DNA of 64,000 nt. Source: Modestobacter roseus (GTDB lineage: Bacteria > Actinomycetota > Actinomycetes > Mycobacteriales > Geodermatophilaceae). The notes under the pieces were generated by a model. The model did not search any database and was not told where the DNA came from. It worked only from the letters and a program-made list of their open reading frames with translations. Shown piece by piece: positions 20,537 through 63,726 of this stretch. The number at the start of each line of letters is the position of its first letter. Within the stretch, counting starts at the first letter, position 1. Where the stretch lies: NCBI RefSeq assembly GCF_007994135.1, contig NZ_VLKF01000001.1, forward strand, positions 4,092,001 to 4,156,000. Reading direction: 5' to 3'. The position numbers were made by a program, and so were the translations under genes.

Positions 20537-20626
20537 GGAGGCTTCGCCTAGTCCGGTCTATGGCGCCGCACTGCTAATGCGGTTTGGGGTAACCCCCCAT
20601 CCCGGGTTCAAATCCCGGAGCCTCCG
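20537..20626 (+). tRNA. tRNA-Ser(GCT)
   Basis: A 90-base class II tRNA with acceptor stem GGAGGCT/AGCCTCC, anticodon GCT at 20573-20575 in loop CTGCTAA, a long variable arm, T-loop GGTTCAAATCC and discriminator G. TTGGGG with TAGCCT about 18 bases later, roughly 30 bases upstream, may be its promoter. Confidence 0.97.
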
Positions 20627-20650
20627 CGCAACAGCACAACTGAACACCAC

Positions 20651-20723
20651 GCACCCGTAGCTCAACGGATAGAGCATCTGACTACGGATCAGAAGGTTAG
20701 GGGTTCGAGTCCCTTCGGGTGCA
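20651..20723 (+). tRNA. tRNA-Arg(ACG)
   Basis: A 73-base tRNA with acceptor GCACCCG/CGGGTGC, anticodon ACG at 20684-20686 (loop CTACGGA), T-loop GGTTCGAGTCC and discriminator A. It lies 24 bases after tRNA-Ser(GCT), so the two may share a transcript. The A34 should be edited to inosine by TadA, which is encoded at 49887. Confidence 0.97.
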
Positions 20724-52744: not shown

Positions 52745-52829
52745 GGAGGATTCGCCTAGTGGCCTATGGCGCTCGCTTGGAAAGCGGGTTGGGTGCAAGC
52801 CCTCGGGAGTTCGAATCTCCCATCCTCCG
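52745..52829 (+). tRNA. tRNA-Ser(GGA)
   Basis: An 85-base class II tRNA: acceptor GGAGGAT/ATCCTCC, anticodon GGA at 52779-52781 (loop TTGGAAA), long variable arm, T-loop AGTTCGAATCT, discriminator G. A small hairpin at 52838-52852 could end it. The EamA gene on the opposite strand runs 66 bases into it. Confidence 0.97.
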
Positions 52830-53809: not shown

Positions 53810-53905
53810 GGGACCCGACCCCTCGTACGGCGTCACCCTGTGAACCTCCCCAGGGCCGGAAGGCAGCAAGGATAAGCGGGCTCTGGCGGGTGTGCGGGGG
53901 GTCCC
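53810..53905 (+). ncRNA. ffs: Signal recognition particle RNA, small bacterial type
   Basis: The conserved core GTGAACCTCCCCAGGGCCGG, then AAGGCAGCAAGGATAAGCGG, is the SRP domain IV with the GGAA tetraloop and Ffh-binding internal loops. Terminal arms GGGACCC and GGGTCCC close the hairpin. TACAGT at 53804-53809 may be the -10 box, so the true 5-prime end could be several bases later. It works with Ffh in membrane protein targeting. Confidence 0.93.
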
Positions 53906-53950
53906 TTGCGTTCCCAGCCTCCTCCCAGGTCCGTGCGGTCCACTGCCCCC

Positions 53951-60894: not shown

Positions 60895-60966
60895 GGTGGT
60901 TGAGGGTTCAGTCACAACGGCGGTCCGGAAGTGGCGGCCGCGGTGGTCACGGGGGAGTCTGAACGG

Positions 60967-61035
60967 GTGGTCGAGCCGGGTTCGTTGACGCGTCGCCGCG
61001 CCATCGACCTGATGCGCGTCGCCAGCACGCTCTGA
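60967..61035 (+). CDS. Leader peptide of the metNIQ operon (RRxxDLxRVAS type)
   Basis: GTG 60967 has GGGGAG about 10 bases upstream and opens a 22-residue frame ending LTRRRAIDLMRVASTL. This matches short actinobacterial leader peptides upstream of sulfur genes, which read RRHVDLxRxSSA(I/L)C. At the place of the usual Cys codon there is TGA, the stop. A hairpin lies between this frame and metN. Cysteine- or methionine-responsive attenuation of the transporter is the likely purpose; the family match is from memory. Confidence 0.6.
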   Translation: MVEPGSLTRRRAIDLMRVASTL

Positions 61036-61054
61036 CGGGGTACTCCCCACGAGT

Positions 61055-61088
61055 CGGACGCGCCCGGTGGCTCCCGCCCCGGCGTCCG
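61055..61088 (+). promoter_or_regulatory. Hairpin between leader peptide and metN
   Basis: CGGACGC (61055-61061) pairs with GCGTCCG (61082-61088) around a 20-base G/C-rich loop that can pair further. It starts 19 bases after the leader stop and ends 43 bases before metN, a position suited to attenuation. Confidence 0.45.
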
Positions 61089-61131
61089 GTGAGCAGCGCC
61101 CGACCGCCCGCACCTGCCCGAGGACCCGCCC

Positions 61132-62220
61132 ATGATCGAGCTGTCCGACGTCCGCAAGGTCTTCCCCGCCCGCCGCGGTGCCGGCGAGGTGGTCGCCGTC
61201 GACGGCGTCAGCCTGTCGGTCGCCCGCGGTGAGTTCGCCGGCGTCGTCGGCCCCAGCGGCTCGGGCAAGAGCACCCTGGCCCGGCTGGTGAACCTGCTGG
61301 AGCGGCCGACGTCGGGCACGGTCGCCGTCGACGGGCAGGTGCTCACCGACCTCGACGAGGACGGCGTCCGCCAGGCCCGCCGCAGCGTCGGGATGATCTT
61401 CCAGCACTTCCACCTGCTCGACTCCCGCACCGCCGCCGGCAACGTCGAGCACCCGCTGGAGCTGGCCGGGATGGGCCGCGCCGAGCGCCGCCGCCGGGTC
61501 GCCGAGCTGCTCGACCTCGTCGGGCTGGCCGACCGGCACGGTTCCCGGCCCGCCCAGCTCTCCGGCGGGCAGAAGCAGCGCGTCGCCATCGCCCGCGCGC
61601 TCGCCGCCCGCCCCACCGTGCTGCTCTGCGACGAGGCGACCTCCGCGCTCGACCCGGCGAGCACCGCCGGCGTCCTCGACCTGCTGCGCACGGTCCGCGC
61701 GGAGCTCGGCCTCACCGTGCTGCTGATCACCCACGAGATGGCCGTGGTCAAGGCGGTCTGCGACAGCGCGGTGCTGATGAGCGACGGTCGGGTCGTCGAC
61801 GGCGGCCCGCTGGCCGAGGTGCTCACCCGCCCGGACTCCCCGCTGGCCGCCCAGCTGGTGCCCGCGCCGCCCGTCGACCCCGCCGACGGCGACCTGGTGG
61901 CGGTCACCGTCACCGACGCGGCCCCCGAGGGGCAGGTGCTCCGGGTGCTCGCCGGTGAGCTGGGACTGTCCGTCGAGGTGGCCGGCGGCTCGGTCGAGTC
62001 CGTCGCGGGGCACCGCTTCGGCCGGCTGCTGCTGCGCGTGCAGGGCGACGACGGCGGCCGGCTGGACACCGCGCTGGCCCGGCTCCGCGCCGACGGTGCC
62101 CTGGTCGAGCGGGCCGTGCCCGGCGGTCGGCGCCCGCTGCCCGGTGCCGACGACGAGCCGGAGCAGCCCGCCGAGCCCGACGTCCAGCAGCTCGCCGACG
62201 CCCCGGAGGTGCAGCGGTGA
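61132..62220 (+). CDS. metN: Methionine ABC transporter ATPase
   Basis: The 362-residue ATPase has Walker A GPSGSGKST, signature LSGGQKQRVAIARAL, Walker B LLCDEATSALDP and switch ITHEMAVVKAVC, followed by the C-terminal NIL domain that senses methionine (VLAGELGLSVEVAGGSVESV). It drives import of methionine. CCGAGGA precedes ATG 61132. Confidence 0.93.
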   Translation: MIELSDVRKVFPARRGAGEVVAVDGVSLSVARGEFAGVVGPSGSGKSTLARLVNLLERPTSGTVAVDGQVLTDLDEDGVRQARRSVGMIFQHFHLLDSRTAAGNVEHPLELAGMGRAERRRRVAELLDLVGLADRHGSRPAQLSGGQKQRVAIARALAARPTVLLCDEATSALDPASTAGVLDLLRTVRAELGLTVLLITHEMAVVKAVCDSAVLMSDGRVVDGGPLAEVLTRPDSPLAAQLVPAPPVDPADGDLVAVTVTDAAPEGQVLRVLAGELGLSVEVAGGSVESVAGHRFGRLLLRVQGDDGGRLDTALARLRADGALVERAVPGGRRPLPGADDEPEQPAEPDVQQLADAPEVQR

Positions 62221-62873
62221 ACTGGGACCGCATCGCGCCGCAGCTGGTCGACGCCACCGGCGAGACGCTCTACATGGTCGGCGTCTCCACCGCGCTCACC
62301 GTGCTGCTCGGCGTCCCGCTCGGGGTGCTGCTGACGGTGACCTCGCCGGGTGCGCTGGCGCCGCACCCGCTGCTGAACCGGGTGCTCGGCCTGGTGGTCA
62401 ACCTGGGCCGCTCGCTGCCGTTCATCATCCTGCTGGTGCTGGTCGCCCCGGTCACCCGCGGCATCGTCGGCACGACCATCGGGTCGACGGCGACGATCGT
62501 GCCGCTCACCATCGGCGCCGTCCCGTTCCTGGCCCGCCTGGTCGAGACCAGCCTGCGCGAGGTGGCGCACGGCAAGGTCGAGGCCACCCTCGCCATGGGC
62601 GCCCGCCGGCGCGACGTCGTCCGCACCGTGCTGCTCCCCGAGGCGCTGCCGTCGCTGGTCGCCGGCGTCACCGTCACCGTCGTCGCGCTGATCAGCTACT
62701 CGGCGATGGCCGGGGCGATCGGCGGCGGCGGGCTCGGCGACTTCGCCATCCGCTACGGCTACCAGCAGTTCCGCACCGACATCACCGTGGTCACGGTCGT
62801 GGTGCTCCTCGCCGTCGTCCAGGCCCTGCAGTGGGCCGGCGACCGCTGGGCGCGCCGCCTCGCCCACGCCTGA
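62217..62873 (+). CDS. metI: Methionine ABC transporter permease
   Basis: The 218-residue permease has five membrane helices and the EAA-type loop (VEATLAMGARRRDVVRTVLL PEALP split over the loop). SLPFIILLVLVAPVTRGIVG is typical of MetI. The GTG start at 62217 overlaps metN as GTGA. Confidence 0.93.
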   Translation: MNWDRIAPQLVDATGETLYMVGVSTALTVLLGVPLGVLLTVTSPGALAPHPLLNRVLGLVVNLGRSLPFIILLVLVAPVTRGIVGTTIGSTATIVPLTIGAVPFLARLVETSLREVAHGKVEATLAMGARRRDVVRTVLLPEALPSLVAGVTVTVVALISYSAMAGAIGGGGLGDFAIRYGYQQFRTDITVVTVVVLLAVVQALQWAGDRWARRLAHA

Positions 62874-62907: not shown

Positions 62908-63726
62908 ATGCGCTCGAAGCTGACCCTGACCGCCGCCGCGTTCACCACCGCCCTGACCCTGTCCGCCTGCGGGGGCGGCGACGCCGAGCTCTCCGCCGCC
63001 GACGAGCCGTTGCAGGTCGGCGCCTCGCCGGTGCCGCACGCGGAGATCCTGCGGTACATCGACGAGGAGCTCGCCGACGACGCCGGCCTGGACCTGGAGA
63101 TCGTCGAGTTCACCGACTACGTGCAGCCCAACACCGCGCTGGACGACGGGTCGATCGACGCCAACTACTTCCAGACCGTGCCCTACCTGGAGGAGCAGGA
63201 GGCCAGCGCCGGCTACGACTTCACCGCGCTGGAGCCGGTGCACATCGAGCCGCTGGGGCTGTATTCCGACACCCTCACCGACCTGGCCGACCTGCCCGAC
63301 GGCGCCACGGTGGCCATCCCCAACGACCCGACCAACGCCGGGCGCGCCCTGGAGCTGCTGGCCGCCAACGACCTGATCACGCTGGCCGACACCGGGGACT
63401 CCGCGCCCACCGCGCTGGACGTCGAGGGCAACCCGAAGAACCTGCAGATCACCGAGATCGAGGCCGCCCAGCTGCCCCGCTCGCTGGCCGACGTCGACGC
63501 CGCGGTGATCAACGGCAACTACGCGATCGACGCCGACCTGGTGCCGGCCGAGGACGCGCTGGCGCTGGAGGAGGCCGAGGGCAACCCCAATGCCAACCTG
63601 CTCGTGGTGCGCGCCGGCACCGAGGACGACGAGCGGATCCAGCAGCTGGAGGAGCTGCTGCACTCCGACGAGGTGCGCACGTTCATCGAGGACACCTACG
63701 AGGGCGCGGTCATCCCCGCCTTCTGA
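62908..63726 (+). CDS. metQ: Methionine-binding lipoprotein (NlpA family)
   Basis: The 272-residue lipoprotein has signal KLTLTAAAFTTALTLSAC with the lipobox cysteine, then the NlpA fold: LQVGASPVPHAEILRYIDEE, VEFTDYVQPNTALDDGSIDA NYFQ (split), and DVDAAVINGNYAIDADLVP. It binds L- or D-methionine for the MetNI transporter. AGAGGA lies before ATG 62908. Confidence 0.93.
   Translation: MRSKLTLTAAAFTTALTLSACGGGDAELSAADEPLQVGASPVPHAEILRYIDEELADDAGLDLEIVEFTDYVQPNTALDDGSIDANYFQTVPYLEEQEASAGYDFTALEPVHIEPLGLYSDTLTDLADLPDGATVAIPNDPTNAGRALELLAANDLITLADTGDSAPTALDVEGNPKNLQITEIEAAQLPRSLADVDAAVINGNYAIDADLVPAEDALALEEAEGNPNANLLVVRAGTEDDERIQQLEELLHSDEVRTFIEDTYEGAVIPAF

Follow-up and report, generated by a model that had tools for sequence, protein, structure and literature searches.

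In the 64-kb stretch of the Modestobacter roseus genome analysed here (the window), the methionine transporter operon metN-metI-metQ lies on the plus strand behind recR, and between recR and metN we find a short leader ORF (Table 1). The NCBIfam matches of MetN, MetI and MetQ given in the table all fall under their curated cut-offs. The short frame that the original prediction had placed upstream of metN and read as ending RRRAIDLMRVASTL ahead of a stop does exist, from its GTG (60967) to its TGA (61033-61035), and 96 nt separate this stop from the metN start (61132). Elsewhere in the window are three tRNA genes and a small SRP RNA (20537-20723, 52745-52829 and 53814-53909).

Table 1. Features of the leader region and the metNIQ operon, in window coordinates.
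Feature	Position	Strand	Description
Imperfect palindrome TGAG-N-TCACA	60901..60916	+	Putative operator or upstream element, 66 nt before the leader start
-35-like hexamer GTGGCG	60931..60936	+	18-nt spacer to the -10; found by eye in an ungapped promoter listing; weak
-10-like hexamer GAGTCT (nAnnnT)	60955..60960	+	6 nt before the start codon
Leader ORF, MVEPGSLTRRRAIDLMRVASTL then stop	60967..61035	+	GTG start, TGA stop, 22 codons; NF042934-type, without its Cys
Asp codon of the (V/I)DLxR motif	61006..61008	+	Register point; D+9 is Cys or stop
Stop codon TGA at D+9	61033..61035	+	Position is Cys in every placed non-metN leader of the NF042934 kind
Leader-metN spacer	61036..61131	+	More C than G, no T-tract terminator, ordinary hairpin at 61056-61087
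metN	61132..62220	+	Methionine ABC transporter ATPase with NIL domain; best NCBIfam TIGR02314; Pfam ABC_tran, NIL
metI	62217..62873	+	Permease; best NCBIfam match PRK10782
metQ	62908..63726	+	NlpA/MetQ-type lipoprotein; PRK11063 MetQ; Pfam Lipoprotein_9

A sulfur-type leader with a stop at the cysteine position

The window leader is a short ORF with the core RRxx(V/I)DLxR, and the sulfur-related genes that it precedes are metNIQ. Searched in six frames, the pattern R[RHK]x[VIL]DLxR occurs a single time in the window, compared with a mean of 0.09 and a maximum of 2 in 100 mononucleotide shuffles of the same DNA. The leader shares its RRxxDLxR core, its register and its sulfur-gene context with NCBIfam NF042934 ("cis_reg_atten, putative leader peptide") and with the Ms5788A family NF042933; it differs from NF042934 in having a stop where that family has a Cys. 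It matches NF042934 with 26.8 bits as a peptide and 24.7 bits in a genome search (cut-off 27), a score that does not set it apart, because four of six Cys-bearing sister leaders also miss the cut-off in the genome search (26.8-27.3 bits, two of six over it; 29.0 bits as peptides). The alignment ends at model position 16 of 19, ahead of the Cys, and Cys-less leaders score lower because the model contains this residue; all 15 Cys-less metN leaders were found with it, 14 below E = 0.001 and one at 0.09. A Cys leader of another genus (the L010 type) matched no NCBIfam family. The NF042934 match and the core motif support the sulfur-type (Cys-type) family to which the leader had originally been assigned.

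We used the conserved Asp as register point and call the codon nine codons past it D+9. Cys at D+9 as a trait of NF042934 leaders was recognised in the present analysis and does not come from a published definition. The window leader has TGA where its relatives read TGT, just as had been proposed from the sequence. We read 41 metN leaders in the family, two of which lack a legible core; the remaining 39 have Cys at D+9 in 24 cases, a stop in 15 and any other residue in none, a pattern of "only Cys or stop" that represents few independent changes. For comparison we read all remaining NF042934 matches (E no higher than 0.0185) of the clade, whose 21 genomes belong to the window's genus and the TAG species described below. 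All 68 of these leaders carry Cys at D+9, so that within the 21 genomes the difference between Cys and stop is confined to the metN leader. In the window genome the other leaders lie ahead of sulfite/nitrite reductase, TauE/SafE permease and rhodanese genes. A wider sample took in 41 genomes from the order, 37 of which gave a match, and 41 from the phylum, where 3 did. Of the 115 distinct places listed, 75 were read; a script placed the motif in 68 of these 75, with Cys at D+9 in every case, and one further match ending before the Cys (in genome G138) proved to contain it on reading.

A predicted leaderless promoter

The hexamer nAnnnT lies at -12 to -7 in 21/21 metN leaders of the clade, compared with 10 of the 1713 RTG positions on the plus strand of the window. 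Given the spacing of this -10-like element to the start codon, a leaderless transcript is therefore predicted, one that begins at the start codon of the leader itself. Farther upstream, TGAG-N(3-8)-TCACA is found at -62 to -67 in 21/21 metN promoters of the clade, and by its sequence it is a putative operator or upstream element.

Conservation of the leader and selection on its core

Of 112 genomes searched in the family, 41 have a MetN orthologue at E <= 1e-60; the window's genus accounts for 23 of the genomes searched and for 9 of those with an orthologue. Each of the 9 metN loci detected in this genus carries the leader, which occurs there in two types. The TGA type is seen at three loci (the window, G004 and G017) and ends in L-stop, with TGA followed by CGN; the TGT type is seen at the other six and ends in LCR-stop, encoded as TGT CGG TGA. 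Since six species of the genus carry Cys, the stop is unnecessary for metNIQ control in general. At the six TGT loci (L004-L009) the Cys, Arg and stop codons fall inside a small hairpin, TGTCGG-TGAG-CCGACA/G, which is absent from the TGA and TAG sequences. The TAG type occurs in 12 species of two other genera, one locus each, and reads LT(R/K)RRA(I/V)DL(M/L)RTAS(R/L)L, then TAG. A lack of conservation of the short frame in close relatives would have spoken against the original prediction; the frame is kept at 9/9 metN loci of the same genus and at these 12 loci of two genera. In all 21 species of the clade an ATG or GTG lies exactly 9 codons ahead of the RR core, and the residues between them vary. 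Elsewhere in the family, the metN leaders that could be read carry Cys and differ in sequence.

We also searched genome contigs more widely for MetN and examined 15 of at least 80 loci for leaders; close relatives were absent among the matches listed. A SAM-I riboswitch (RF00162, 48-54 bits) lies directly ahead of the metN leader at 9 of 19 loci scanned (L043, L044, L046, L048, L069, L072, L074, L075 and L076). Behind this riboswitch the leader is of the Cys type in 8/9, forming a tandem SAM and cysteine control region, and G076 (L069) carries a deletion of the core.

The TAG group shows constraint on its Cys-less core at the protein level. The pN/pS of the core is 0.255 in frame among the 12 TAG leaders and 1.48 and 2.03 in the shifted frames; with all 15 Cys-less leaders the in-frame value is 0.332, and the shifted frames give 1.39 and 1.45. 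Substitution in these 15 leaders is thus not the random pattern that would have spoken against the original prediction, the excess of synonymous changes being found in the reading frame only. Cys-bearing leaders in these genomes have pN/pS values of 0.16-0.18 (sulfite reductase and rhodanese) and 0.28 (four TauE/SafE leaders). The three TGA leaders, the window's type, show few differences when taken by themselves, and no purifying signal (pN/pS 1.10). Genes in the neighbourhood mostly end in TGA, with TAG scattered among them, but several long antisense frames likewise end in a conserved TAG and a change from TAG to TGA takes two steps, so conservation of the TAG itself was discounted as proof of function.

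We built trees of MetN (41 rows) and of RecR plus DnaX (18 rows). Both recover the six TGT species as a single clade (84/76 and 99/97), which is nested in a grade of TGA species, and place the TAG species beyond the genus. This allows either an old stop with a single return to Cys, or several losses of Cys, all of them to a stop. By parsimony the stop-first order and repeated Cys loss are one step apart (3 vs 4), and the CR-stop ending common to the TGT leaders and outgroup leaders argues the opposite way to this count.

The spacer between leader and metN

The hairpin described earlier behind the leader can be found at 61056-61087. However, the spacer is no more stably folded than shuffled sequence, and no hairpin was seen that is common to the other species of the clade. 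Compared with 200 dinucleotide shuffles the window spacer has z = +1.29, with 182 of the 200 folding at least as well, and a stem directly past the leader stop averages 5.0 bp in the 21 species, compared with 4.9 bp, with a lowest single p of 0.11. The window spacer contains no T-tract, and the stable hairpin plus T-tract of an intrinsic-terminator attenuator is not found there. Because the spacer is unexceptional against shuffles and its structure is unshared across species, we give the hairpin no weight, and a role for it as terminator or switch was rejected on its shuffle-level structure, the missing T-tract and the lack of an outstanding stem in 21 species. A first impression that the G000 and G017 spacers are specially alike was likewise not borne out. 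C exceeds G in the spacers of 21/21 clade loci.

With a ribosome modelled at codon 23, access to the metN Shine-Dalgarno sequence shifts by 0.05 or less in 17/21 sequences, and no sequence gains more than 0.10. This fold model of the 21 sequences lends no support to a stalled ribosome releasing the metN ribosome site. Altogether, the fold model and the shuffles detected no RNA switch in the leader-spacer region of the 21 species.

Interpretation of the stop codon

The safest statement is that the locus carries a leader of the sulfur type with a stop as its control codon, the protein-coding frame being kept at least in the TAG relatives. Beyond this, our preferred explanation, to which we assign a probability of roughly 0.45, is that an NF042934-type and probably leaderless leader had its control codon changed to a stop, at which ribosomes may pause during termination. 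The presence of a stop at the Cys position with the rest of the peptide kept suggests that the switch was rewired, not simply lost. In the non-metN leaders the Cys at D+9 presumably serves as a sensor of Cys-tRNA. The A-site codon that matters in the metN leader would be the one nine codons past the conserved Asp, and terminating ribosomes would pause just where Cys starvation would stall a ribosome, with help from the conserved nascent chain. A pause at the stop would uncouple metNIQ from the cysteine signal and allow constitutive or differently signalled expression, and it might act on the C-rich, terminator-free spacer, perhaps via Rho in a TnaC-like manner. We infer a termination pause because the register is fixed and no other codons are found at D+9; a Rho-type mechanism is compatible with these observations.

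A serious rival, which we regard as quite possible, holds that cysteine control was lost and that no new mechanism took its place. The promoter with its TGAG-N-TCACA operator would run metNIQ, and the leader would survive solely as a leaderless entry point for ribosomes on the mRNA, or would be slowly decaying in the TGA species. The palindrome kept in 21/21 promoters fits such a loss, as do the pN/pS of 1.10 among the three TGA leaders, the RNA switch that was looked for and not detected, and the single base change that turns TGT into TGA. The TAG group fits it poorly, since its core is kept across two genera with a pN/pS of 0.255, near that of Cys-bearing leaders, and so does the replacement of Cys by stops only, never by other sense codons, among the 39 legible leaders. 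A broader version of the termination-pause explanation is that sulfur leaders are in general arrest peptides in which D+9 tolerates only the slow codons, Cys or stop, and that in this family the metN leader has shifted between these two codons, a Cys-tRNA sensor becoming a termination-arrest device, maybe one responsive to some other sulfur signal, for example methionine. We consider this version doubtful.

Methionine could also be sensed in place of cysteine, with Met at the x of DLxR and Met-tRNA read at codon 16. The operon encodes a methionine transporter, and 19/21 leaders of the clade have Met at this codon, which in those genomes reads Ala, Leu or Cys in the leaders of sulfite reductase, TauE/SafE and rhodanese. 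However, two TAG species (G062 and G067) have Leu there, only a single Met codon is involved, and Met is found at the same place in leaders that keep their Cys (L004-L009 of the genus, and L320 and L354), all of which makes sensing of this kind improbable.

The genomes carry SelB and a tRNA-Sec, and a selenocysteine reading of the stop was therefore suspected, in which Sec would replace Cys and the leader would sense Sec-tRNA. The tRNA-Sec has the anticodon CUA in 30/30 genomes checked and reads UAG; in G000 it is L183 (G000:C1:639892-639983), which ARAGORN calls a tRNA-Pyl. The formate dehydrogenase of the window genome (L197) contains an in-frame TAG with a GGTCT-loop hairpin behind it, and the Geodermatophilaceae case in the available text of PMC5330540 agrees with the CUA anticodon and in-frame TAG seen here. 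TAG is also the stop of 12/15 Cys-less leaders, compared with 2/41 other leaders of those 12 genomes, and in one of the TAG leaders, that of G059, a 6-bp stem closes a GGTAC loop 19 nt past the codon. Against this stand the GGTCT loop in 0/12 TAG leaders in the same scan that finds it in formate dehydrogenase, the 11/12 TAG leaders without any hairpin having a loop that starts with GGT, an unconserved frame past the TAG, and the two steps from TAG to TGA, which allow inertia to account for a shared TAG. In the window, G004 and G017 the codon is TGA, and no reader of UGA was seen in them, the second, weaker tRNA-Sec match over the cut-off in G000, G004 and G017 being a tRNA-Ser. Because the tRNA-Sec reads UAG and not UGA, the window UGA is an ordinary stop; with no hairpin like that of formate dehydrogenase past it, Sec at this codon was rejected. 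A Sec-sensing leader is very improbable altogether, and it keeps low odds in the TAG relatives, whose Cys position is occupied by the Sec codon.

Related leaders and implications

Mycobacteria reportedly carry leaderless cysteine leaders, the polycysteine leaderless short ORFs described by Canestrari and colleagues in 2020. Like the window leader, these are short ORFs that precede sulfur-related genes and probably open a leaderless mRNA, but they sense Cys by runs of Cys codons and the window leader has no Cys codon. The mycobacterial type works by translational release of the downstream ribosome site, to which the fold model of the metN leaders lends no support. TnaC of Escherichia coli works from its stop codon. 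By analogy the metN leader would share with it a conserved nascent chain, a pause at the stop codon and a Rho-type spacer without intrinsic terminator; the resemblance would lie in the proposed working only, not in the sequence.

The mycobacterial polycysteine short ORFs (Canestrari et al. 2020) are cited in the available portions of PMC9094748 and PMC13236596. For mycobacterial cys leaders Rho has been proposed, in a prediction graded weak in the available text of Seliverstov et al. 2005 (PMC1262725). The metL leader of Streptomyces lividans resembles the window leader in lying directly upstream of metNIQ with no typical terminator; it is leaderless, its transcript beginning at the start codon, as predicted for the window leader. 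It differs in that its peptide is another one, with Cys and Met codons at its end (available text of PMC8079986). Five Streptomyces metN loci that we examined among the matches listed carry relatives of metL. We found no description of a Cys-less leader of the NF042934 kind in the accessible parts of the literature searched, which covers subscription journals thinly.

The conserved part of these leaders is found in 37/41 sampled genomes of the order. Searches that require a Cys codon can miss members of the family. The natural Cys and stop versions in close relatives are a ready-made experiment that separates the peptide from the Cys codon. If the conserved part works without a Cys codon, the peptide itself, beyond the hungry Cys codon, would be part of the switch.
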